From assembly GCF_003258295.1 (NCBI RefSeq), contig NZ_QKYN01000014.1, forward strand, positions 1 to 64,000: a DNA stretch of 64,000 nucleotides, given 5' to 3'. How positions within the stretch are numbered: the first letter of the stretch is position 1; each line of letters opens with the position of its first letter. Position numbers and translations under genes: made by a program. Positions 2,458 through 61,373 of the stretch are shown here, one piece after another. This DNA is from Streptacidiphilus pinicola (GTDB lineage Bacteria; Actinomycetota; Actinomycetes; Streptomycetales; Streptomycetaceae). The notes beneath the pieces are model-generated. The model worked only from the letters and a program-made list of their open reading frames with translations. It had not been told where the DNA came from and did no database searches.

Positions 2458-4932
2458 TCAGCCGCGGCGCAGGTGCGCGGTGCGGGACGTGCCGGGGAGG
2501 GCCTGGGTGAGGTCGAGGGTGATCCGGGGTGTGCCGGTGGAGAAGTCCACCCGCACGCCCGGGTCGTCGCTGAAGCCGCGCCGGAAGCCCGGCGCGCCGG
2601 TGAGGGTGACCGTCAGGGTGGTCGAGGTGCAGGTCGGGTCGGAGGCGGCGAGTTCGAGACGGTCGCCGTCGCGGCGGAACAGGAGCGAGGCCGGGCCGTC
2701 GGCGGTGACCCCCGGCAGCGCGGCGCGGCCGGGCGCGAGGCTGCCCGCGACGAAGAAGTTCGCGGCCACCAGTTGCGCGTCCCCCACGTGGACCGCCTGC
2801 AGCGCCACGGAGTTGGCGAGCACGGTGACGCCGGGGCGCTGCGCGCGCCTGGCGGTGGCCGTGGGGGTGGCGCCGGGCAGGAGCAGGTAGCCGTAGCTCG
2901 CGGCGGTCGGGTCGACGCCGTGGTCGAGCCAGAGGGTGACGTAGGTGTTGGTGTACGGCGTGGTGGTGCCGCCGGTGCTCGGGCCGGTGTCGATGGAAGC
3001 CCAGGTGCCGGTGCGCTGCTCACGCAGCCCGCGCAGCACCGTGCCCGACGAGGTCGCGCCGTCGAGCAGCACGTAGCCGGCCACGTCCTGGAGATGGAGC
3101 CAGCCGTCTGGGGCCAGCGCGGTGCTCCACCCCGAACTGCTCGGCTGTATATTGCCGTTGACGGTCAGTGTGTTCGTGCCGGTGGCGTGCAGGTTGCGGT
3201 TCTCCAGTGTCGTCTCGACGGTGTGGCCGGAGCTGCCGGTGATGCCCGCGCCGAGGGCGACGACGCAGTCGTCCAGGCAGAACCACGACTTCCGTGCCCG
3301 CAGTGGCGAGCCGAAGGGGATCAGGTCCAGGCCGACGACCCCGTACCGGCCGCCCAGGACCGCGCCGCCCGCCCAGGGGGTCGGCGGCGTGGTGGCGTCG
3401 CCGGCGCTGTCGGCCAGGGGGAGGGCGTCGGCGGTGACGCCGGGGAGCCGGGTCGGGTCGATGGTGGGCCAGTAGGCGTCTGTGAACTGGCCGTTGTCGC
3501 TGTCGGTGTAGAGCCAGGTCGCGCCGTCGCCGACGTGCCAGCCGTGCAGGTTCTCCCCGTTGAGGGCCTCCAGCCGGGCGATCCGGTCGTTGGAGAGCCC
3601 GACAGCGAACGCCCACCCCGGTCGCCGGTGCACGGCCCGGACGACGGACGGCTGTTGCAGGTGCCCCCGGTTCTGCGGGTCGGGTTGCACCAACGCGTCC
3701 TCCAGCACGGACTTGACCAGCACCATCCGGGCGGGTGTCGCGTCGGCGGCGATCGGCGCGAAGGTGTCCCGGGTGATCCAGCCCTTGCACAGCGCCTTCC
3801 AGCGCTTCTGCTGGTCGCGCGTGCCGACCGGGATCAGCCGCAGCACCGCCTCGGTGATGTCGTGGCCGGCGTCGTGGTCGGTCTCGCCCTGCCGGGAGAG
3901 GAAGCGGCCGCGCACCGCGTCCATCACCAGGCCGTCGCGCATGAACGGCGCGAAGGTCAGGTCGACGGAGTCCAGCACGGTGGCGAACCCGGGGTCGCTG
4001 ATCGGCCAGGAGGAGCCGGCCAGCAGCAGCGAGAGCTGGCTGAGGTCGTTCAGCAGCACATAGGCGTAGTGCCCGTTGTAGGGGATGTTGCCGTGCTGGA
4101 TGTAGCCGCCGTCGCGGTAGAAGCCGTCGGAGGTGGTGACGTAAGGGAAGATGTCCGACAGTTTGTCGCGGCCGAGCGCGATCAGACCCGGGTCCTTGGC
4201 CAGGATGCCGCGCAGGATGGTGATCTGGCACTTGTCGGAGCGGTTGGCCCCGGTCGTGACGACGCTGCCCTGCTGCTGCAGCGTCGGGTCCGGCACGAAG
4301 TGCGCGACGGTGGCGAGGTAGTCGGCGAGGTCGGTGGCGGGCACCTGACTGCCCAGCACCGCACAGGCGTTGAGCAGGGCCTGCGGCGCGGCGATCTCCC
4401 AGTGGTACCAGTTGCCGACCTGCTGTGCGCCGGGGTTGTAGTACGTCGCGTGCAGCAGGGCGAGGCCCGCGACGACGCGGGCGGCGACCGCCGGGTCCTG
4501 CTGGTGCCGGGATCCGGGCGTACCCCAGGCGATGGCGGTGTCGCGCAGCCGGTAGTAGCTGAGGCTGGCGTTCTCGACGTGGGTGAGCGGCAGGTCGGTG
4601 TAGACGCCCCGCGGCGTGGCGGAGTCGTCGTAGAGCGCGATGTCCGCGTCGGCGCCGGCGTCCACGGTGGCGATGGCGTGCGCATAGTCCGGATCGCCCG
4701 GGTCCACGGCGGCCCCGCCGGTCAGGATGTCCGACCAGACGCCGCGCAGCTGGTCGTACGGGTCGCTCGGCGTCGAGGCGTCCGCGGAGTCTGTGGAAGC
4801 GGAGTTGGCGGCGGCACGGGCCTGAGGGGCCGTCAGGCCGCCCAGCAGCAGGGCGCCACCGGCGGCGGCGCCGGCGGCCAGCACCTCGCGACGGCGGGGC
4901 GAGCGGGTGGGTCGGGGCGTGGTCGCATCCAT
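2458..4932 (-). CDS. Secreted polysaccharide lyase family 8 (hyaluronate/chondroitin/xanthan lyase type)
   Basis: This 824-aa protein starts at ATG 4932 behind AAGGAC. It opens with a twin-arginine-type signal (SPRRREVLAAG, a hydrophobic run, ARA cut near residue 41). The alpha-barrel domain carries NWYHWEI (174-180) and TGANRSD. Asn230, His280 and Tyr289 reproduce the 50- and 9-residue spacings of the PL8 catalytic Asn/His/Tyr (Asn349, His399 and Tyr408 in pneumococcal hyaluronate lyase). The beta-sandwich domains fill the second half. Family enzymes beta-eliminate uronic-acid polymers outside the cell to unsaturated oligosaccharides; the exact substrate is not determined. It is divergent from the IclR gene, with a shared operator candidate. 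Confidence 0.9.
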   Translation of the reverse strand: MDATTPRPTRSPRRREVLAAGAAAGGALLLGGLTAPQARAAANSASTDSADASTPSDPYDQLRGVWSDILTGGAAVDPGDPDYAHAIATVDAGADADIALYDDSATPRGVYTDLPLTHVENASLSYYRLRDTAIAWGTPGSRHQQDPAVAARVVAGLALLHATYYNPGAQQVGNWYHWEIAAPQALLNACAVLGSQVPATDLADYLATVAHFVPDPTLQQQGSVVTTGANRSDKCQITILRGILAKDPGLIALGRDKLSDIFPYVTTSDGFYRDGGYIQHGNIPYNGHYAYVLLNDLSQLSLLLAGSSWPISDPGFATVLDSVDLTFAPFMRDGLVMDAVRGRFLSRQGETDHDAGHDITEAVLRLIPVGTRDQQKRWKALCKGWITRDTFAPIAADATPARMVLVKSVLEDALVQPDPQNRGHLQQPSVVRAVHRRPGWAFAVGLSNDRIARLEALNGENLHGWHVGDGATWLYTDSDNGQFTDAYWPTIDPTRLPGVTADALPLADSAGDATTPPTPWAGGAVLGGRYGVVGLDLIPFGSPLRARKSWFCLDDCVVALGAGITGSSGHTVETTLENRNLHATGTNTLTVNGNIQPSSSGWSTALAPDGWLHLQDVAGYVLLDGATSSGTVLRGLREQRTGTWASIDTGPSTGGTTTPYTNTYVTLWLDHGVDPTAASYGYLLLPGATPTATARRAQRPGVTVLANSVALQAVHVGDAQLVAANFFVAGSLAPGRAALPGVTADGPASLLFRRDGDRLELAASDPTCTSTTLTVTLTGAPGFRRGFSDDPGVRVDFSTGTPRITLDLTQALPGTSRTAHLRRG

Positions 4933-5041
4933 GGCGGCGTCCTTCGTTCGGCAGGGATCGGGACGGCGTGCGGTGGGGGCGTGCGCGGGAGTGAACACAT
5001 GACACGACCGAGCACATGATCGAGTCAAGAGTCAGAACATA

Positions 5042-5057
5042 GTTCATACACATGAAC
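5042..5057. promoter_or_regulatory. Putative IclR operator between PL8 and iclR
   Basis: GTTCAT-ACAC-ATGAAC is a perfect 6-4-6 inverted repeat in the divergent gap, 110 bp before the PL8 start and 97 bp before the IclR start. Related copies lie at 8061, 8121 and 12146, in the other regulatory gaps of the uronate locus. IclR proteins commonly bind palindromes of this size, so it is the best operator candidate here. Confidence 0.65.
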
Positions 5058-5153: not shown

Positions 5154-5936
5154 ATGGCGCAGACGCCGAGCCCCGCCGCACCCGTCGGCGCCAACGTCAA
5201 GTCGGCCGTCCGCACCGTCGAACTCCTCGAGTTCTTCGCCGGCCGCCCGGGGCTCCACAGCCTGGCGGAGGTCCAGGAGGCGCTCGGGTATCCCAAGAGC
5301 AGCCTCTACATGCTGCTGCGCACCCTGGTCGAGCTCGGCTGGGTCGAGACGGACGTCACCGGCACCCGCTACGGCATCGGCATGCGCGCGCTGCTGGTCG
5401 GCACCGCCTACATCGACGGCGACGAGGTCGTCGCCGCGACCCGCCCCGTCCTGGACCGGCTCTCCGACGAGACCACGGAGACCATCCACCTCGCCCGCCT
5501 CGACGGCGTCGACGTCGTCTACCTGGCGACGCGGGCGTCGCAGCACTATCTGCGCCCGTTCACCCGCGTCGGCCGCCGCTTGCCCGCGTACTCGACCTCA
5601 CTCGGCAAGGCGCTGCTCGCGACACACACGGACGAGGAGATCGAGAAGCTCCTGCCGGAGCGGCTGGAGCCGCTCACCGAGCACACCCTGACGACGCGCG
5701 CGGCGCTGCTGGAGGAACTCCACGCCATCCGCGAGCGTGGCTACGCCACAGATCGGGAGGAGAACACCCTCGGCCTGTGCTGCTTCGCGGTGGACATCCC
5801 CTACCGCACCCCGTCCCGCGACGCGGTCAGCTGCAGCGTCCCGGTGGCCCGGCTGACCCCGGGCCGCGAGCAGATGATCCGCGATGCGCTGTTCGCTGCG
5901 CGCGAGCGGCTCGCGCTTGCTACGCGTCACCTCTGA
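5154..5936 (+). CDS. IclR-family transcriptional regulator
   Basis: This 260-aa protein has an N-terminal winged helix (VKSAVRTVELLEFFAGRPG through LGYPKSSLYMLLRTLVELGW, about residues 12-70). An IclR effector domain follows (ETIHLARLDGVDVVYLATRAS, LPAYSTSLGKALLA, RGYATDREENTLGLCCFAVDI). I preferred ATG 5154 because AGGAAGGGG sits 6-8 nt before it; GTG 5127 has no such site. It is divergent from the PL8 lyase and probably controls the uronate genes in response to a uronic acid or keto-deoxy-sugar acid, as KdgR-type members do. The effector is inferred. Confidence 0.88.
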   Translation: MAQTPSPAAPVGANVKSAVRTVELLEFFAGRPGLHSLAEVQEALGYPKSSLYMLLRTLVELGWVETDVTGTRYGIGMRALLVGTAYIDGDEVVAATRPVLDRLSDETTETIHLARLDGVDVVYLATRASQHYLRPFTRVGRRLPAYSTSLGKALLATHTDEEIEKLLPERLEPLTEHTLTTRAALLEELHAIRERGYATDREENTLGLCCFAVDIPYRTPSRDAVSCSVPVARLTPGREQMIRDALFAARERLALATRHL

Positions 5937-5947
5937 GCTTGGTTGCG

Positions 5948-7078
5948 CTAGGAAGTTGCAACAACCGCTTCGCGCATGGCATCCCAGTCGGATGTCGATG
6001 CCAACCCCGGGTGGTAGAAACGGAGTTCGGTGGCCCCAGCGTCCACCAGGTCCGTGCACCACGCGGCCAGGTCCGCCCCGTTCCCGCCGAGACCCTCGAC
6101 CGCCGTCACCGTCGCGACCACCCGGCGGTCCGGTCCCGCGTACGCGCGCACAGCGTCGAGCGCCGCCTCGCTGCGAACGTTGCAGAGGAGGACCGGCGCG
6201 GACGCGGCATCGGTGGGCAGGCCCGGGGACGCGCCGCAGGCGAGCGGGTCCGGGTTGGCGTGCAGCAGCACGGGGAGGTCCGGGCGTTCGGCGTGGATCG
6301 CGGTGAGCGCGCGGGCGCGGAGGCGGGCGGCGGTGTCGATCCGCATCCGGGTGACGGCGGCCGTCTGCTCTTCGCTCAGGCGGGCGTCGGCCGCCGTGCC
6401 GGCGAAGACGGGGTCCAGCGCCGCCCGGACGTCCGCGCGCAGACGCGCGGGATCGGTGCCCGCCGCCGCGTACGCGTCCGCGCACGTGGCGCAGAAGCAG
6501 AGTGAGAAGAGCAGCTTCGCGCTCGGCGGGAGCGGGACGCCCGCGGTCTTGTCGTGGGCGTGCAGGTGGTCGAAGCCGTACCAGCCGCAGGACTCCAACT
6601 CCAGGCCCGCCAAGCCTGGTTGGCTCGCGGACTCCGCGGCCAGCGTCGCGCAGTAGCGCTGGACCGCCTCCTGGGCGATGCACAGCGCCCAGGGGAAGCG
6701 GTCGCCGTAGGCGTTGACGACGGTGGCGTCCGCGAAGCGCCCGTCGCTGTGGGCGAGGATCGTCCAGGCGTAGACCTCCAACCCGGCCTCGTTGAGCGCC
6801 GTCACCGCACGGCCGAAGGAGCGGGGGGACCAGGCGGCCTCGGCCGGACGGAGCGGTCCTGTCCAACGCGCCGTGTCCAGCGGGTAGTAGACGGCGGAGT
6901 GGTCCGCGGTGACGACCCGGTGTGCCGGGTGACGTGGCGTCAGCGCACGGACCGCGTGGTACGCCGCGGCGACGGAGGCGCGGCGGACGCCGAGCGAGGC
7001 CAGGCGTCCGGCCGCAGTCGGGTCGCCGTCGAGGTCCCAGGGGTAGACGTAGGCGCCGATCTCCGTCCGTCGGGTCAT
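5948..7078 (-). CDS. Uncharacterised TIM-barrel-like protein of the uronate locus
   Basis: I do not recognise a named family for this 376-aa protein. It has no signal peptide. It begins with a strand-like IGAYVYPWDLDGDP and has VYAWTILAHSDGRF, VNAYGDRFPWALC, GLELESCGWYGFDHLHAHDK, SLCFCATCADAY and a C-terminal ELRFYHPGLAS. Alternating strand/helix segments and conserved-looking acids at strand ends (LELES) suggest a glycoside-hydrolase-like barrel, and the CFC..C cluster may bind metal. Its start overlaps the dehydratase stop by 4 bp (ATGA), so it is in the uronate operon. It could supply one of the steps not otherwise found: unsaturated-oligosaccharide hydrolysis or aldarate dehydration. That is a guess. 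Confidence 0.6.
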   Translation of the reverse strand: MTRRTEIGAYVYPWDLDGDPTAAGRLASLGVRRASVAAAYHAVRALTPRHPAHRVVTADHSAVYYPLDTARWTGPLRPAEAAWSPRSFGRAVTALNEAGLEVYAWTILAHSDGRFADATVVNAYGDRFPWALCIAQEAVQRYCATLAAESASQPGLAGLELESCGWYGFDHLHAHDKTAGVPLPPSAKLLFSLCFCATCADAYAAAGTDPARLRADVRAALDPVFAGTAADARLSEEQTAAVTRMRIDTAARLRARALTAIHAERPDLPVLLHANPDPLACGASPGLPTDAASAPVLLCNVRSEAALDAVRAYAGPDRRVVATVTAVEGLGGNGADLAAWCTDLVDAGATELRFYHPGLASTSDWDAMREAVVATS

Positions 7079-8019
7079 GCGAGCGCCTCGCGGGTCCGCT
7101 CCAGCAGCGCGAGCAGCGTGGTGACGTGGGCCGGGTCGGGCTCGGTCAGGGGGGCGCGGACCTCGCCGACGGGGTGGCCGACGGCCCGCGTCGCGGCCTT
7201 GACCAGGGAGACGGCGTAGCCGGGCCGTTGGCGGCGCAGTTCGACGTAGGGGCGCAGGAAGGTGTCGGTGAGCACGGTGAGCGTGGCCGCGTCGCCCTTC
7301 TCCAGGGCGCGGTGGAAGGCGAGTGCGAGGTCGGGCGCGAAGCAGAAGACGGCCGAGGAGTAGAGCGGGACGCCGATCGCCCGGTAGGCCGCCTGCGTCG
7401 ACTCGGCGGTCGGCATGCCGTTGAAGAAGAGGAAGTCCCGTGCGCCTGAGGTGCGCACCGCGCTGACGATGCGCAGCATCAGGTCGAGGTCGCCGCGGCC
7501 GTCCTTGAAGCCGACGATGTTGGGCACCTCGGCGAGGCAGGCCACCGTCTCGGGGGTGAAGACCAGTTGGTCGCGCTGGTAGAGGATCAGGTCGAGGCCG
7601 GTGGACCCGGCCAGCGCCGTGTAGTGGCGCAGCAGCCCGTCCTGGTCGGCGTCGACGCCGGCCGGCGGCAGCACGAGGAGCGCGTCGGCGCCGGCGGCCT
7701 CCGCGGCGCGGGCGTACTCGCGGGCGAGCGCCGTGCCGTAACCGGTGCCGCCGACGACGGGCACGCGGCCGGCCGTGGTGGTGACGGCGGTCGCGAGGAC
7801 CTGGGCGTACTCGGCGAGGCCCAGTGCGGGGAACTCGCCGGTGCCGCAGGCGGCGAAGACGGCGCCGGGGGCGTCCGCGAGGCGGGCCTCCAGATGGGCC
7901 CGGTAGCCGCCGGCGTCGAAGCGGCCCGCCGCGTCGAACGCCGTCACGGGGAAGAACAGCAGGCCGTCGAGGCGACGGGCGAGCGGCGGGGCGGGGTGGG
8001 CCACCGGGTGTTGGGTCAC
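7075..8019 (-). CDS. kdgD: 5-dehydro-4-deoxyglucarate dehydratase (KdgD), DHDPS family
   Basis: This 314-aa protein is a class I aldolase-fold enzyme of the dihydrodipicolinate synthase superfamily. It has GLLFFPVTAFD (19-29), ACGTGEF (57-63), the proton-relay Tyr in LYQRD (148) and the Schiff-base Lys in VGFKDGRGD (172). LFFPVTAF and YQRD are the forms seen in KdgD, not in DapA or NanA. KdgD dehydrates and decarboxylates 5-dehydro-4-deoxy-D-glucarate to 2,5-dioxopentanoate, which the aldehyde dehydrogenase at 9042 can use. It is translationally coupled to the unknown gene downstream and divergent from uronate dehydrogenase. Confidence 0.83.
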   Translation of the reverse strand: MTQHPVAHPAPPLARRLDGLLFFPVTAFDAAGRFDAGGYRAHLEARLADAPGAVFAACGTGEFPALGLAEYAQVLATAVTTTAGRVPVVGGTGYGTALAREYARAAEAAGADALLVLPPAGVDADQDGLLRHYTALAGSTGLDLILYQRDQLVFTPETVACLAEVPNIVGFKDGRGDLDLMLRIVSAVRTSGARDFLFFNGMPTAESTQAAYRAIGVPLYSSAVFCFAPDLALAFHRALEKGDAATLTVLTDTFLRPYVELRRQRPGYAVSLVKAATRAVGHPVGEVRAPLTEPDPAHVTTLLALLERTREALA

Positions 8020-8060: not shown

Positions 8061-8136
8061 GTGCATGGACGTGAACGCGTCGAGCCTAGGTCGGCCGCGG
8101 CGTGGTGGTCAAGGTGCAGCGTTTGTATATGTGAAC
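8061..8136. promoter_or_regulatory. Two IclR-operator-like sites in the kdgD/udh divergent gap
   Basis: GTGCATGGACGTGAAC at 8061-8076 matches the perfect copy at 5042 in 12 of 16 positions. GTTTGTATATGTGAAC at 8121-8136 matches in 11 of 16, with transitions at the rest. They are 60 bp apart, one near each divergent gene. This links both transcription units to the IclR regulator. Confidence 0.5.
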
Positions 8137-8212
8137 AAGAACCCCCCTTGTGAACGAGTCCGGGTTCTGTGAGCATGAGCCGCACACGAGCAGACACCAC
8201 GAGGGAGACTCT

Positions 8213-9049
8213 GTGTCCCGGATTCTGATCACCGGCGCGGCGGGCGGCGTCGGCACCCTGCTGCGGCCCCGGTTGGCCCGCCCCGACCGGACCCTGCGGC
8301 TGCTCGACATCGCCGAACTCGAGCCGCGCGAGGGCGAGGAGGTGCTGCGGGCCTCCGTCACCGACCTGGACGCCATGACGAAGGCCTGCGCCGACGTGGA
8401 CGCGGTCGTGCACCTCGGCGGGATCTCCGTCGAGGCGGCCTGGGCGGACATCCTGGACGTCAACATCCACGGCACCCGGACGGTCTTCGAGGCCGCCCGG
8501 CGGGCCGGCGTGCCGCGCGTCGTCTTCGCCTCCTCCAACCACGCCGTCGGTTTCCACACGCCGGACGAGTACCCGCTCGGCGCCGACACCCCGCCGCTGC
8601 CGGACACCTACTACGGCGTCTCCAAGGTCGCCGGGGAGGCGCTCGGCGCGCTCTACCACCACCGCTACGGGCTCGACGTCATCTGCATCCGCATCCTGAC
8701 CTGCTTCCCCACGCCGCCCAACCCGCGCGCCCTGTCGACCTGGCTCTCGCCGGACGACTGCGCCCGGCTGCTGGAGGCCTGCCTGGCCGCGCCCAGCCCC
8801 GGCTACCGGATCGTCCACGGCGTCTCCCGCAACACCCGCGGCGGCTGGGTCACGCTGGACGAGGCCGCCGCGCTCGGCTACGACCCGCAGGACGACGCCG
8901 AGGTGCACGCCGCCGCCGTTCTCGCCGAGCACGGCGACCCGGGCCCGGACGATCCCGTCTTCGCCCATCTCGGCGGACCCTTCACCTTCCCCGAGTTCGA
9001 CGTCGACCGGATGGACCGGACGGAGACGGGCGGTGCCGGCGATGAGTGA
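8213..9049 (+). CDS. udh: Uronate dehydrogenase (NAD-dependent, extended SDR)
   Basis: This 278-aa Rossmann protein has TGAAGGVG (7-14), LDIAE for NAD binding, HLGG (67-70), ASSNHAVGFH (106-115) and the catalytic Tyr134-x3-Lys138 (YYGVSK). The NHAVG segment is typical of uronate dehydrogenases, which oxidise glucuronate or galacturonate to the aldaro-lactone. I chose GTG 8213 because GAGGGAG is 5 nt upstream and the product begins SRILITGAAG; the frame is open back to 8150. It overlaps the next gene by 8 bp. It is the first oxidation in the proposed pathway. Confidence 0.88.
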   Translation: MSRILITGAAGGVGTLLRPRLARPDRTLRLLDIAELEPREGEEVLRASVTDLDAMTKACADVDAVVHLGGISVEAAWADILDVNIHGTRTVFEAARRAGVPRVVFASSNHAVGFHTPDEYPLGADTPPLPDTYYGVSKVAGEALGALYHHRYGLDVICIRILTCFPTPPNPRALSTWLSPDDCARLLEACLAAPSPGYRIVHGVSRNTRGGWVTLDEAAALGYDPQDDAEVHAAAVLAEHGDPGPDDPVFAHLGGPFTFPEFDVDRMDRTETGGAGDE

Positions 9050-10511
9050 GGTGGTGCAGGGCTTCGACCCGCGCACGGGCCTGCCGCTGGGCGAGCCCCT
9101 GCCCGCGACCACGCCCGAGGAGGTCGACCGGGTCTGCCGCGCGCTGGACGGGCTCGCCCACGCCTGGGCGACGACCTCCCGCGAAAGCCGGGCCCGCACG
9201 CTGGAGGCGGTGGCCGACCGGCTCGACGACCACACCGACGAGCTGGCCGCCCTCGCCGACGGCGAGACGGCGCTCGGACTGCCCCGCCTGGCCGGCGAGG
9301 TCGCCCGCACCACCGGCCAACTGCGGCTCTTCGCCGAGGTCCTGCGGGACGGCGGGTACCTCGGCTCGGTCGTCGAGCCCGCCGATCCGGGCGCGGCCCC
9401 ACCGCGTCCGGACCTGCGCCGCAGCAAGCGGCCCACCGGGCTCGTCGCCGTCTTCGCCGCGTCCAACTTCCCCTTCGCCTTCTCCGTGGCCGGTGGTGAC
9501 ACCGCGTCCGCCCTGGCGGCCGGCTGCCCGGTCGTGGTCAAGGCGCACGAGGCGCACCCGCGCACCTCCGCGCGGACCGCCGAGCTGGTCGCCGAGGCCC
9601 TGGCGGACTGCGGCGCGCCTGCGGTCTTCGCTCTCGTGCACGGCTTCGACGCGGGCGTGGCGCTGGTGCGGCACGCGGCCGTCACCGGCGTCGGGTTCAC
9701 CGGCTCCACGCGCGGCGGCCTGGCCCTGGCCGCGGAGTGCGCGCGGCGGCCCGAACCGGTCCCGTTCTTCGGCGAGCTCGGCTCGGTGAACCCCGTGGTG
9801 GTGCTGCCGGGTGCGGCCCGGGCGCGCGCCGAGGCGGTCGCGACCGGCTGGGCCGGCTCGCTCACCCTCGGCGTCGGCCAGTTCTGCACCAACCCCGGCC
9901 TGCTGTTCGTCCCCGACGATGCGGACCTGCTCGCCGCGCTCGGCGAGGCGGTGTCCGCGACCAGCGGCGCCCCGATGCTGACGGCCCGGATCCACGCCGC
10001 CCACCGCGACGCCGTGGTCGCGCTGGCCGCCCGCCCGGAGGTGACCCTGCTGGCCGAGAGCACGGCGGGGGAGGGCCCGTGGGCGGGCCGACCCGCCGCC
10101 TTCCGGGTCGACGCCGACGACTTCGAGGCCGCCTCGGACTACTTCTTCGAGGAGCGGTTCGGCCCCGTCGGCATCGTCGTCACCGGTGCGACGCCGGAGC
10201 GGGCCGCCGGCTGGATCGCCCGCGGACCTGGCCAACTGACCTGCGGCGTCCACCTCGACGAGACGGACCCGGACGACCTCGCCGCCGCGTCCCGCCTGCT
10301 CGACACGGCCGCGCGACGGGCCGGACGCGTGGTGGTCAACGGCTGGCCGACGGGCGTCGCCGTGAACCGCGCCCAGCAGCACGGCGGTCCGTTCCCGGCC
10401 ACCACCGGCCCGGCACACACCTCCGTCGGCGCGGCGGCGATCGACCGCTGGCTCGTCCCGGTCGCCTACCAGGACTGCCCGCCGGCGCTGCTGCCGCCCG
10501 AGCTGCGCTGA
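9042..10511 (+). CDS. Aldehyde dehydrogenase, 2,5-dioxovalerate (2-oxoglutarate semialdehyde) dehydrogenase type
   Basis: This 489-aa ALDH-superfamily enzyme has VFAASNFPFAF (137-147), GFTGSTRGG, the general-base Glu245 in FGELGSVNP and the nucleophile Cys282 in GQFCTNPG. FAASNFPFAF, SVAGGDTASALAAGCPVVVK and GQFCTNPG are the forms seen in the ketoglutarate-semialdehyde group that ends the oxidative uronate/aldarate pathway, giving 2-oxoglutarate. ATG 9042 overlaps the udh stop by 8 bp, so the two are co-translated. A strong hairpin follows the stop. Confidence 0.85.
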   Translation: MSEVVQGFDPRTGLPLGEPLPATTPEEVDRVCRALDGLAHAWATTSRESRARTLEAVADRLDDHTDELAALADGETALGLPRLAGEVARTTGQLRLFAEVLRDGGYLGSVVEPADPGAAPPRPDLRRSKRPTGLVAVFAASNFPFAFSVAGGDTASALAAGCPVVVKAHEAHPRTSARTAELVAEALADCGAPAVFALVHGFDAGVALVRHAAVTGVGFTGSTRGGLALAAECARRPEPVPFFGELGSVNPVVVLPGAARARAEAVATGWAGSLTLGVGQFCTNPGLLFVPDDADLLAALGEAVSATSGAPMLTARIHAAHRDAVVALAARPEVTLLAESTAGEGPWAGRPAAFRVDADDFEAASDYFFEERFGPVGIVVTGATPERAAGWIARGPGQLTCGVHLDETDPDDLAAASRLLDTAARRAGRVVVNGWPTGVAVNRAQQHGGPFPATTGPAHTSVGAAAIDRWLVPVAYQDCPPALLPPELR

Positions 10512-10560: not shown

Positions 10561-11943
10561 TCAGTTCCGCAGGTCCAGCTCGATCTGCTCCAGGGAACGG
10601 CCCTTGGTCTCCGGCACCAGGCGCTTGGTCAGCCCGAGCAGGACCAGGTTGACGGCGGCGAAGACGTACATGGAGTTCGCCACGCCCAGATGGTTCCTGT
10701 CGGACATGATCGGGAAGATCGCGGTGATCAGACCGGTCGCCGCCCACAGCACCACCGCGCCCACGCCCATGCCGGCGCCGCGGGCCTTGAGCGGGAAGAC
10801 CTCGGCCATCATCACCCACACCACCGCGCCCCAACCGAGCTCGTAGCCGGCCAGGTAGAGCACCAGCAGCACCACCGTCAGCGTGCCGAGGGTGCCCTTG
10901 TCGTGGACGCCGGAGATCACCACGCCGGTCAGCGCCAGCGTGACCACCATCACCACGTTGCCGATCAGCAGCAGCGGCTTGCGCCCCCAGCGGTCGACGA
11001 CGAAGACGACCCAGGCGGTGAAGGCCAGCTTGGTGACGCCGAGGACGATCGCCGACAGCAACGCGGTGTTGGCGGTGAAGCCCAGCGAGACCAGCATGGT
11101 GGGGAAGTAGGCGTTGATCGCGTTGACCCCGCTGAACTGCTGACCGATCGCCAGCAGCAGCGCCACCAGCAGCATCGGGCGCACCCACCGGGAGGTGAAC
11201 AGGTCGCGCACCCGGTAGGACTGCTCGCGGTCGAGGCGGATCACCTCGCGGATCGCCTGCAGCTCGGCGTCGATCTCGTCGGCCCGGTGGGTGGACGCGA
11301 GCACCGCCCGCGCCTCGTCCTCCCGGCCCAGGTTGACCAGCCAGCGCGGCGTCTCGGGCAGGAAGGTGAGGCCGACGACGAGGACCAGCGCTGGCACCAG
11401 GGCGCCCGCGAACATCCAGCGCCACTGGTGCGCGGGCTGCAGCCAGTAGTCGACCAGGAAGGCGATGAGGATGCCGCTGACGATGAAGATCTGGTTGAGC
11501 GAGCCCATCGCGCCGCGGATGCGCGCGGGCGCCAGCTCGGACAGGTAGGTCGGCACGGTCGCGGAGGAGAGGCCGATGCCGAGGCCCAGCAGCGTCCGGA
11601 AGACCACCAGCACGCCGAACCCGGGCGACAGCGCGCACGCGACGGTGCCGAGGATGACCACGCCGCCGGAGGCCATGATGGTCCGCCGCCGGCCGATCCG
11701 GCCGGTCAGGCGCGCGGCCAGGCCCGCTCCGATCATCGCGCCGACGGACAGCGAGGCCGTCACCAGCCCCTTGTCGAAGCCCGACAGGTTCCAGGGCTTG
11801 GCGATGACGACCAGGATCCCGGCGATGACGCCGAGGTCGTAGCCGAAGAGGATCCCGCCCAGCGCACCGAAGGCGTAGAGCGTGCCGGGATGGAGCCGGC
11901 GCAGTGTGGAGGGGGAGGGCGGGGACGCGGTGGCCTGGGCCAT
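10561..11943 (-). CDS. MFS sugar/H+ symporter
   Basis: This 460-aa protein has about 12 membrane segments and the sugar-porter signatures: GGILFGYDLGVIAG in TM1, RIGRRR after TM2, SELAPARIRGAMGSLNQ after TM4, PETPRWL before the central loop, QQFSGVNAINAYFP in TM7, DRWGRKPLLLIGN, and PETKGRSLEQIE at the end. It probably imports the monosaccharide or uronic acid released by the lyases. It is divergent from the second lyase, with an IclR-operator-like site in the 352-bp gap. Confidence 0.87.
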   Translation of the reverse strand: MAQATASPPSPSTLRRLHPGTLYAFGALGGILFGYDLGVIAGILVVIAKPWNLSGFDKGLVTASLSVGAMIGAGLAARLTGRIGRRRTIMASGGVVILGTVACALSPGFGVLVVFRTLLGLGIGLSSATVPTYLSELAPARIRGAMGSLNQIFIVSGILIAFLVDYWLQPAHQWRWMFAGALVPALVLVVGLTFLPETPRWLVNLGREDEARAVLASTHRADEIDAELQAIREVIRLDREQSYRVRDLFTSRWVRPMLLVALLLAIGQQFSGVNAINAYFPTMLVSLGFTANTALLSAIVLGVTKLAFTAWVVFVVDRWGRKPLLLIGNVVMVVTLALTGVVISGVHDKGTLGTLTVVLLVLYLAGYELGWGAVVWVMMAEVFPLKARGAGMGVGAVVLWAATGLITAIFPIMSDRNHLGVANSMYVFAAVNLVLLGLTKRLVPETKGRSLEQIELDLRN

Positions 11944-12145: not shown

Positions 12146-12161
12146 GTTCATGAACATGAAT
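12146..12161. promoter_or_regulatory. IclR-operator-like site in the MFS/lyase gap (11944-12295)
   Basis: GTTCATGAACATGAAT matches the 5042 site in 13 of 16 positions. It lies 135 bp before the lyase start and 203 bp before the MFS start. A smaller repeat (ATTCA-TCAG-TGAAT) is just upstream, near 12130. The rest of this 352-bp divergent gap is AT-richer than its surroundings and shows no gene. Confidence 0.5.
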
Positions 12162-12295: not shown

Positions 12296-13669
12296 ATGTC
12301 CCCCACCAAAACGCCCCTCGCCCTCGTGGCTGCCGGTGCGCTGACGGCCGCCGGCGCCGTCGCGTTAGCCCTGTCCGGCCCGAGCGCCACGGCCGCCGCC
12401 GGGGCGATACCCGGCGACCTCGCCTGCGGCGCCGCCACTACGGCCACCAGCACCGCCTCCGGCAGCTCGCCCGCGGACGCCACCGACTGCGACACCGGCA
12501 CCGCCTGGAACAGCGCCGCGGCCACGCTTCAGGAGCTCAAGGTCGACCTGGGCAGCACCCAGGCCGTCGACCACGTCACCGTGGCCTGGGGCGCCGGATA
12601 CGGCACCAGCTTCAAGATCCGCACCTCGCCGGACGGCGCCACCTGGCACACCCAGACCGCCGTGACCGGCGGCACCGGCGGCACGCAGACGGTCGCCCTG
12701 CCCTCCGGCGTGGAGACCCGCTGGATCGAGATCTACGGCGAGCACTACGCGGGCGGATCCGGCTTCGCCGTCGACGAGTTCGAGGTCTTCGCGACGAACG
12801 CCACCGGCGAGCCGTCGCCCTCGCCCTCCTCCTCTTCCTCCCCCTCCGCCTCGCCGTCCGCGACCGGGACGCCCACCCCCACGGGCACGCCAACGCCGGG
12901 CGGATCTGCCGCCTGGACCGGTCAGTTCACCGGTTACGGCTCCAGCAGCTGGAAGTCTGCCTGGGGTTGGACGTCCACCGGTTCCTGGGGTTCGGGCCAG
13001 ATCCAGGAGGTCACCGACGCCAACGCGCCCGGCGACCACAGCGCCCTGGAGATCACCTACGGGGCCGGCTCCTCCGCCCACTCCTGCACCGACTGCCCGA
13101 ACCCGGGCGGCGCGCAGTTCTACACCCAGCTCGGCTCGCTCAGCGGCGGCTCCGCCCTCGCGTCCTCCACGACGCTGGACCTCAAGTACGCGCTCAAGCT
13201 CCCGGCCGGCTACGACTTCGGCAAGGCGGGCAAGCTCCCCGGCCTCTACGGCGGCGTGATCGGCCAGGAGTCCGGCGGCAACCACGGCAACGGCTGGTCC
13301 ACCCGCTACATGTGGCGCGGCGCCAACGGGGTCGCCAACAACGGCGAGGTCTACCTCTACACCCCGACCAACTCCGGCCCCACCGGCTACGGCGTGGACC
13401 TCGGCGTCGGCGACTGGAAGTGGCTCGCGGACGGCAACTGGCACACCGTCGAGCAGCTGGTGAACCGCAGCACCGGCGACGTCACCGTCTGGTACGACGG
13501 CGCCCAGGTCGCGTCCTTCAAGGGCGCCGCCTCCGGCATCGGCTCCATCCCGTTCAGCGGGGTGTTCTTCTCCACCTTCTACGGCGGACACGACACCAGC
13601 TGGGGACCGAAGACGACCACGCACGCGTACTTCGCCGACTTCTCGCTGTCGAAGACCGTGCAGCACTGA
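12296..13669 (+). CDS. Secreted polysaccharide lyase (PL14/PL20-like) with F5/8C-type carbohydrate-binding module
   Basis: This 457-aa protein starts at ATG 12296, with AAGGAG 4 nt upstream. A signal peptide (to about residue 35) is followed by a coagulation-factor-5/8-type beta-sandwich (about 38-165: DTGTAWNSAAATLQELKVDLG, ETRWIEIYGEHY). A Ser/Pro/Thr linker (about 168-200) leads to a jelly-roll domain with ALKLPAGYDFGKAGKLPGLYGG, GWSTRYMWR, DGNWHTVEQLVN and VFFSTFYGGHDTSW. The KLPGLYGG and FYGGHD blocks are those of PL14 alginate/glucuronan lyases and PL20 glucuronan lyases. It probably cleaves a glucuronan- or alginate-like polymer outside the cell. Confidence 0.78.
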   Translation: MSPTKTPLALVAAGALTAAGAVALALSGPSATAAAGAIPGDLACGAATTATSTASGSSPADATDCDTGTAWNSAAATLQELKVDLGSTQAVDHVTVAWGAGYGTSFKIRTSPDGATWHTQTAVTGGTGGTQTVALPSGVETRWIEIYGEHYAGGSGFAVDEFEVFATNATGEPSPSPSSSSSPSASPSATGTPTPTGTPTPGGSAAWTGQFTGYGSSSWKSAWGWTSTGSWGSGQIQEVTDANAPGDHSALEITYGAGSSAHSCTDCPNPGGAQFYTQLGSLSGGSALASSTTLDLKYALKLPAGYDFGKAGKLPGLYGGVIGQESGGNHGNGWSTRYMWRGANGVANNGEVYLYTPTNSGPTGYGVDLGVGDWKWLADGNWHTVEQLVNRSTGDVTVWYDGAQVASFKGAASGIGSIPFSGVFFSTFYGGHDTSWGPKTTTHAYFADFSLSKTVQH

Positions 13670-59981: not shown

Positions 59982-60047
59982 CCCGATCAGCCATCCCGTC
60001 CCACCGCTCACCCGTTCACGCATCCGAACCACCCGGAGACAACAGCC

Positions 60048-61373
60048 ATGAGCATGAGCACCACCGCGCAGCTTCCCGTCGCCGTGATCGGAGCGGGTCC
60101 GGTCGGCTTGGCCGCCGCCGCGCACCTGCTCGAACGCGGCTTGAACCCCCTGGTCCTGGAGGCCGGCCCGAGCGCGGGAACCGCCGTGCGCTCCTGGGGC
60201 CATGTGCGCCTGTTCTCCGCCTGGTCCGAACTGGTCGACCCGGCCGCCGCCCGTCTGCTGGAGCCCACTGGCTGGACCCACCCCGACCCCGGCCGCTACC
60301 CCACTGGCGCCGAATGGGCCGAGCTCTACCTGCAGCCCCTCGCCGCCGCCCTCGCCGACCGCGTCCGCTACAACACCACCGTGACCGGCACCGCCCGAGC
60401 CGGACGAGACCGCGTCGTCGACACCGATCGCGAGACCCAGCCCTTCACCGTCCACCTCCGCTCCGCCGACGGCCGCCAGGAGCGACTCCAGGCGCGCGCG
60501 GTCATCGACGCCTCCGGTACCTACAGCACTCCCAATCCGCTCGGCGCCGACGGCCTGCCCGCGCTCGGCGAGGACACCCACGCCGACCGGATCAGCTACC
60601 GGGTCCCGGACCTGACGGAGCCCCAGGTCCGCGCCCGCTTCGCAGGCAAGACCACGGCCGTTGTCGGCACCGGAGCCTCCGCCTTCACCGCCCTTGCGGC
60701 ACTCGCCGACCTGGCCGGGCAGGAGCCCGGCACCCGCGCGGTGTGGATCCTGCGCCGCGGCATCACCGGCAACACCTACGGCGGGGGAGACGCCGACCAA
60801 CTCCCGGAGCGCGGCGCGCTCGGCCAGAAGGCCAAGGCCGCCGTCGACGCCGGCCATGCCAGCGCGCTCACCGGATTCCGCACCGCCGCCATCGAACCCG
60901 CGGAGAGCGACCGACTGGTGCTCGTTGGCGAGGACGGCACCCGCACCCCGCCCGTCGACCAGATCATCGCGCTCACCGGCATGCGCCCCGACCTCTCCTT
61001 CCTGTCCGAGCTGCGCCTCGGCCTGGACGAGCGGTTGCAGGCCCCGATCAAGCTCGCCCCGCTGATCGACCCCAACCAGCACTCCTGCGGCACCGTCTAC
61101 CCCCACGGTGCGCTCGAACTCGCGCACCCGGAGGAGGGCGTGTACCTGGCCGGGATGAAGTCCTACGGTCGCGCCCCGACGTTCCTCGCACTGACCGGCT
61201 TCGAACAGGTCCGCTCCATCGCCGCCGCCCTCGCCGGCGACCACGAGGCCGCCGCCCGCGTCGAACTCACCCTCCCCGAGACCGGCGTCTGCAGCGGGGG
61301 CGGACTGGCCGCCGAGCCGGACGACACCACCGACACAACCGGTGGTTGCTGCAGCGTCCCCGCGCTGGGCTAG
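60048..61373 (+). CDS. FAD-dependent oxidoreductase with C-terminal Cys tail (ars-associated)
   Basis: This 441-aa flavoprotein has the FAD site VAVIGAGPVGLAAAAHLLERG (about 11-31, in two parts), RSWGHVRLFSAWSELVDP and a second nucleotide site TAVVGTGASAFTALAAL. FAD-binding EEGVYLAGMKSYGRAPTFLALTGFEQVRS (two parts) precedes the tail. The tail holds GVCSGGG and TGGCCSVPALG. It follows arsM by 66 bp with GGAGAC before the ATG. It probably oxidises or reduces an arsenical with NAD(P)H; the reaction is unknown. Confidence 0.8.
   Translation: MSMSTTAQLPVAVIGAGPVGLAAAAHLLERGLNPLVLEAGPSAGTAVRSWGHVRLFSAWSELVDPAAARLLEPTGWTHPDPGRYPTGAEWAELYLQPLAAALADRVRYNTTVTGTARAGRDRVVDTDRETQPFTVHLRSADGRQERLQARAVIDASGTYSTPNPLGADGLPALGEDTHADRISYRVPDLTEPQVRARFAGKTTAVVGTGASAFTALAALADLAGQEPGTRAVWILRRGITGNTYGGGDADQLPERGALGQKAKAAVDAGHASALTGFRTAAIEPAESDRLVLVGEDGTRTPPVDQIIALTGMRPDLSFLSELRLGLDERLQAPIKLAPLIDPNQHSCGTVYPHGALELAHPEEGVYLAGMKSYGRAPTFLALTGFEQVRSIAAALAGDHEAAARVELTLPETGVCSGGGLAAEPDDTTDTTGGCCSVPALG

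Follow-up and report, generated by a model that had tools for sequence, protein, structure and literature searches.

A 376-residue protein encoded at positions 5948..7078 (minus strand) of the window, the 64,000-nucleotide stretch of Streptacidiphilus pinicola DNA analysed here, belongs to a conserved, unannotated, glycoside-hydrolase (GH)-like family with a clear association with the uronate pathway. The gene for this protein, hereafter Q, starts with an ATG that shares 4 bp, as ATGA, with the TGA of kdgD (7075..8019, minus strand), which encodes a 5-dehydro-4-deoxyglucarate dehydratase of the DHDPS family; the coding strand reads ...CTCGCATGACC... We compared 39 non-redundant loci with a homologue: 34 have kdgD upstream of Q in the same orientation, and the overlap measures exactly 4 bp in 23. 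The pairing of the two genes is thus kept in Streptomycetaceae at large, in line with the translational coupling that the original prediction had proposed. KdgD itself scored above the PRK03620 subfamily cut-off and below the TIGR03249 KdgD equivalog cut-off (301 versus 374 bits). For Q, Pfam returned nothing above 16.3 bits, a value reached by Bd3614-deaminase (16.3 versus 38.5 bits), whose HxxxH/CxxC motif we judged to be matched by chance. There was no match to NCBIfam or, with either the single sequence or a profile, to PDB sequences, and none in Q to GHL10 (PF02638, at E ≤ 1), MR_MLE_N/MR_MLE_C (PF13378/PF02746), SMP-30 (PF08450), GH88/GH105 (PF07470) or, by Pfam, an amidohydrolase family. 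Assigning this protein, which has a strong homologue in ∼65% of sampled Streptomycetaceae and is named by no family library searched, would close a gap in our picture of how soil actinomycetes break down uronic acids, and a new GH family with an unusual active site could result.

The barrel-like character read earlier from the sequence was borne out by an AlphaFold2 model computed from an alignment of 12 sequences (pLDDT 84.8, pTM 0.87), which forms one single (β/α)8 barrel without an N-terminal capping domain. The top structural match to the model was the GH domain of PgaB (VIA Z 24.4, 306 residues, 3.6 Å, 13% identity), alongside the GHL10 protein Cwp19 (Z 24.0), the fucosidase 6tvk (Z 23.0) and GH42 (Z 22; identity 9–13%). 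Foldseek likewise gave Cwp19 (2.5e-9) and PgaB (4e-9), with D-tagatose 3-epimerases at 7.6e-5. No amidohydrolases were among the best 50 structures listed, an absence that carries no weight against a barrel of that type. Profile–profile comparison with GHL10 gave a probability of 94.5% for a match spanning strands 3–4. Of the two barrel types named for comparison in the original prediction, the modelled fold is GH-like, not enolase-like.

Two further sequence features noted at the outset, an acidic LELES strand end and a CFC..C cluster, both contain invariant residues. LELES comprises residues 159–163 at the C-end of strand 4, and its Glu162 (codon 6593..6595, minus strand) is invariant in an alignment of 55 sequences (40 udh-linked and 15 distant homologues), as are His110 on strand 3 (codon 6749..6751, minus strand), His41, His175, Trp105, Tyr355 and four cysteines, namely Cys133 (codon 6680..6682, minus strand) and Cys194, Cys196 and Cys199 of CFCATC (6482..6499, minus strand). 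His175 falls within a loop of pLDDT <50 in the model, and the basic residues His50, His273 and His356 are fixed in the udh-linked clade only. At residues 318–335 (strand 7), no conserved acid was found in the 55 sequences. The GH42 C...CxCxxC cluster is a structural zinc site, and the cysteines of Q (C133...C194-F-C196-xx-C199) follow its order and spacing; a GH42 protein in one of the loci examined (L110) reads GFCPSSP...CFCDTS, in the same order as Q. Judged by this motif, the cluster of Q is a putative GH42-like zinc site.

Glu162 occupies the catalytic-acid position of GHL10, PgaB and GH42 and aligns with the DD pair of GHL10. By profile–profile alignment and published Cwp19 numbering, Trp105, His110 and Glu162 fall on Trp127, Arg132 and the strand-4 acid of Cwp19, Asp196, whose reported counterparts in PgaB and GH42 are acids of importance there (PMC5765458). 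Like Q, GHL10 as represented by Cwp19 has a single (β/α)8 barrel, a strand-3 Trp, a strand-4 acid and, according to PMC5765458, no Glu on strand 7. However, Q has no PF02638 match, replaces Arg132 by His110 in all 55 family sequences, carries the four-Cys cluster and lacks the wall-binding domains of Cwp19. Distant Q homologues scored 22.3 and 20.4 bits against PF02638 (E 8e-5 and 3e-4), below the gathering score of 27.9; weak GHL10 matches in five other loci (L106–L110) turned out to be unrelated to Q. The C-terminal GH domain of PgaB has the highest Z and the strand-4 acid, but PgaB is a biofilm polysaccharide enzyme and retains a strand-7 Glu607 (PMC5765458). GH42 β-galactosidases share with Q the strand-4 acid and a C...CxC(xxC) cluster in unchanged order, whereas their strand-7 nucleophile Glu and further GH42 domains are missing in Q. 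The enolase-superfamily dehydratases (GudD, Gci) have MR_MLE domains and a capping domain that Q lacks, and the β-propeller of SMP-30 lactonases and the (α/α)6 barrel of GH88/GH105 unsaturated uronyl hydrolases both differ from its β/α barrel. Gci belongs to the enolase superfamily and Gli to the amidohydrolases. The Agrobacterium Udh-Gli-Gci-KdgD set resembles the Q locus in that udh and kdgD serve a common route, which includes an enzyme handling the lactone (PMC6353982), but Q is of neither Gci nor Gli type by Pfam, and a GudD-like dehydratase, described below, belongs to the Q regulon.

The neighbouring genes encode a uronate dehydrogenase of the SDR type (udh, 8150..9049, plus strand; by homologues, the GTG at 8213 is likely the true start), an aldehyde dehydrogenase that is a candidate α-ketoglutarate semialdehyde dehydrogenase (9042..10511, plus strand), an MFS sugar porter (10561..11943, minus strand), an IclR-family regulator (5154..5936, plus strand) and two lyases, a polysaccharide lyase family 8 (PL8) protein (2458..5028, minus strand) and a protein with an F5/8-type C domain and a polysaccharide lyase 14 (PL14) domain (12296..13669, plus strand). 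PL8 and PL14 lyases give rise to unsaturated uronyl products. No GH88/GH105 hydrolase was found above cut-off in the S. pinicola genome, a weak GH88 match (22 versus 26.6 bits) not being accepted. The window udh is ∼50% identical to the udh of the Streptomyces udh-kdgD-Q trio and stands in the same trio arrangement. The Streptomyces trio gene is a biochemically characterized uronate dehydrogenase: the primers used for cloning the S. viridochromogenes enzyme, UdhSv, which prefers glucuronate (PMC4476818), match both of its ends, in several species with at most a few mismatches.

A GTTC-N8-GAAC palindrome occupies the kdgD–udh intergenic region in the window and in related loci. Here it is present as GTTCACATATACAAAC between kdgD-Q and udh (8121..8136, minus strand) and as GTTCATACACATGAAC between the PL8 gene and iclR (5042..5057, plus strand), and a weaker operator-like site (12146..12161, plus strand; score 16.9) precedes the PL14 gene. 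The IclR protein is the presumed reader of this operator. Our position weight matrix was built from nine kdgD–udh-type sites and gave no score above 16 in 2 Mb of simulated sequence. A similar palindrome at 60014–60029 (score 16.9), before a flavin monooxygenase-like gene at 60048, lies in a different, apparently arsenic-resistance locus and was taken as probably a chance match.

The original prediction had seen neither a glucarate/galactarate dehydratase nor a lactonase at this locus. For the window this stands, with no such dehydratase or SMP-30 lactonase in its first 24 kb or the rest, but candidates of both kinds lie elsewhere in the genome. On another contig, a GudD-like gene (L091:9685-10950) has the operator 17–33 bp before its start (score 18.9), and in three related genomes the operator scores 23.0 at ∼68 bp before the matched gudD start; in several other genomes with gudD elsewhere, no operator was found before it. 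Scanning 325 kb of other contigs of the same genome revealed no strong new member (best score 16.7). GudD-like genes also lie near Q in six loci (L007, L009, L012, L013, L069 and L078). The relatives in L007 and L009 scored 268.9 and 282.3 bits against the glucarate dehydratase model TIGR03247, missing its equivalog cut-off of 828.7, and it is from operator and operon context that we infer a glucarate dehydratase. With a GudD-like gene elsewhere in the genome under the same operator, the idea that Q supplies the missing dehydratase was not upheld. What was upheld is that Q represents a TIM-barrel family without annotation, closely linked to udh and kdgD and plausibly a pathway enzyme. The genome also holds two SMP-30 genes, with no operator within the 10–18 kb scanned around each. 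Of the two genes whose presence elsewhere under the same operator would count against the original prediction, only the dehydratase-like one was found.

A survey of homologues for co-occurrence with kdgD and udh, as first suggested, found the trio nearly always together in the loci inspected, Q nearly always adjoining uronate dehydrogenase. Eleven Q homologues from a collection of species genomes have a udh-like SDR, an IclR regulator and kdgD nearby in nearly all cases. Ordinary Streptomyces carry the same trio, with udh facing kdgD-Q, without lyases; ABC sugar importers are found near these loci. A 12-sequence profile matched 318 of 395 sampled Streptomycetaceae, 258 of them strongly, and 16 of 396 genomes in a phylum-wide sample. 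A second match in the S. pinicola genome fell on an unrelated gene. Distant relatives (21–27% identity) reside on plasmids of Rhizobium, haloarchaea and Alicyclobacillus, next to sugar ABC importers, MR/MLE enzymes, SDRs, RidA, creatininase or amino-sugar genes. This distribution and these neighbourhoods indicate a broad, carbohydrate-linked family of which one clade alone is tied to udh and kdgD. Across the 395 genomes, strong Q and a GudD-like gene occurred together in 217, Q alone in 41, GudD alone in 15 and neither in 122 (Fisher p 4e-48), and strong Q was present in only 1 of 29 genomes without an MR/MLE dehydratase (p 4e-13), both p-values being inflated by kinship of the genomes. This phylogenetic profile does not support Q as a dehydratase substitute and makes such a role improbable as a general rule.

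Two steps have no gene in the regulon, the release of uronate monomers from oligosaccharides and the opening of the aldarolactone. As its fold is that of glycan-cleaving enzymes, monomer release suits Q better than lactone opening, and we tentatively propose, at a little short of an even chance, that Q is a cytoplasmic uronide hydrolase feeding Udh. In this scheme, in which substrate, reaction, zinc and catalytic roles are all inferred, the secreted PL8 and PL14 lyases would act first and uptake would proceed by the MFS porter or a CUT1-type ABC importer. Q, whose unnamed family is akin to GHL10, PgaB and GH42 in its fold and in the arrangement of its active site, would then hydrolyse the uronic-acid-bearing oligosaccharides taken up, whether saturated glucuronides or unsaturated ones made by the lyases, to free uronate. 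Udh would convert this to the aldarolactone, to be opened spontaneously or by a further enzyme; the GudD-like dehydratase, encoded elsewhere under the same operator, and KdgD would follow, and the aldehyde dehydrogenase would act last to give 2-oxoglutarate. As Q has no counterpart to the nucleophile that clan GH-A carries on strand 7, catalysis would rely on Glu162 as general acid together with His110.

In favour of the hydrolase, besides the structural and profile matches, PL8 and PL14 adjoin the locus with operator sites, the genome has no GH88/GH105 enzyme above cut-off, and distant homologues are found with sugar ABC importers, nagZ, DUF1343 and GH18. The ABC sugar importers near Streptomyces trio loci, the GudD-like gene in the regulon, the characterized udh and the basic residues fixed in the udh-linked clade only also fit this reading. 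Against it, the linkage of Q with kdgD and udh is as tight as one would expect of a central enzyme of the route, and it holds even beside an existing GH67 α-glucuronidase (L009). A second catalytic acid on strand 7 is missing, and most Streptomyces trio loci have no adjoining polysaccharide lyase. Moreover, Cwp19, the GHL10 member of known activity, acts on peptidoglycan, not on uronides.

The main rival reading, which we consider unlikely yet worth serious weight, is that Q opens the aldarolactone, hydrolysing or isomerizing the glucaro- or galactaro-1,5-lactone made by Udh into the substrate of the GudD-like dehydratase. Two loci (L009 and L078) hold Q together with dehydrogenase, GudD-like, KdgD and semialdehyde dehydrogenase candidates, leaving lactone opening as the sole remaining step; co-occurrence with GudD-like genes (217 of 258), the lack of an operator near the SMP-30 genes in the stretches scanned and a haloarchaeal homologue beside an SDR dehydrogenase and an MR/MLE dehydratase point the same way. 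Dedicated lactone-handling enzymes do exist (PMC6353982, PMC9007349), but rearrangement of the lactone in solution appears to be at least partly spontaneous (PMC6353982), a close GudD is missing in 41 of the 258 Q-bearing genomes, and the fold of Q does not appear to be that of a known lactonase family, SMP-30 being a propeller and amidohydrolases being absent from the best 50 structures listed.

It is rather improbable that Q acts on some other sugar metabolite, as an epimerase, isomerase or metal-dependent hydrolase using His41, His110, Glu162 and His175, with the udh-kdgD link a side branch. The several invariant histidines, the Foldseek matches to D-tagatose 3-epimerases and distant homologues located with creatininase, RidA, amidohydrolase and deaminase genes would fit such a role, but the best structural and profile matches are glycan-cleaving enzymes and His175 sits in the poorly predicted loop. 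Slightly less probable again is a bolder form of the hydrolase proposal, in which Q would found a new GH family of unsaturated-uronyl hydrolases with a GHL10/GH42-like barrel, working through a single carboxylate together with a histidine. Udh could then oxidize the 4-deoxy-5-ketouronate released by Q straight to the substrate of KdgD, so that neither the opening of a lactone nor a dehydration would be needed. Least probable is direct conversion of the aldarolactone or uronate to the keto-deoxy acid, with Q a non-homologous stand-in for galactarolactone cycloisomerase or dehydratase and udh-Q-kdgD a complete three-enzyme route; the trio parallels Udh-Gci-KdgD of A. tumefaciens (PMC6353982), and the Kitasatospora results given next, with one Q-bearing genome in which no MR/MLE or GarD-type dehydratase was found, would fit, but the rarity of strong Q where MR/MLE dehydratases are missing, the frequent presence of GudD-like genes in the same operon or regulon and a GH-like barrel without the enolase capping domain all argue against it. 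The genome of Kitasatospora aureofaciens CPD02 (G572; L006 and L073) contains the udh-kdgD-Q trio, but neither an MR/MLE dehydratase (at 1e-20) nor one of the GarD type was found in it, and a GudD-like match at 1e-10 is missing in five of six Kitasatospora genomes tested.

Several neighbourhoods hint at additional pathways. The flanks of Streptomyces trio loci (L058:3232-5885 and alike) contain a conserved IlvD/Edd dehydratase, a DHDPS-family aldolase, a GntR-like regulator and ABC sugar importers, which probably make up a further pathway for sugar acids. Rhizobium homologues (L080:10007-18281 and L088:8995-17298) adjoin RidA, a D-serine-dehydratase-like deaminase, an amidohydrolase, an aspartoacylase-like deacylase and a sugar ABC importer, which suggests a nitrogen-containing substrate. 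On Haloarcula and Haloferax plasmids (L082:3860-12642 and L083:3791-12656), the homologue lies in a sugar ABC importer cluster that also encodes creatininase, an MR/MLE dehydratase, an SDR and RidA, apparently an uncharacterized sugar-acid pathway. In Halorussus (L087:4497-13111), the homologue is accompanied by nagZ, anhydro-MurNAc kinase, DUF1343, a peptidoglycan-recognition protein and GH18, a combination one would not expect in an archaeon.
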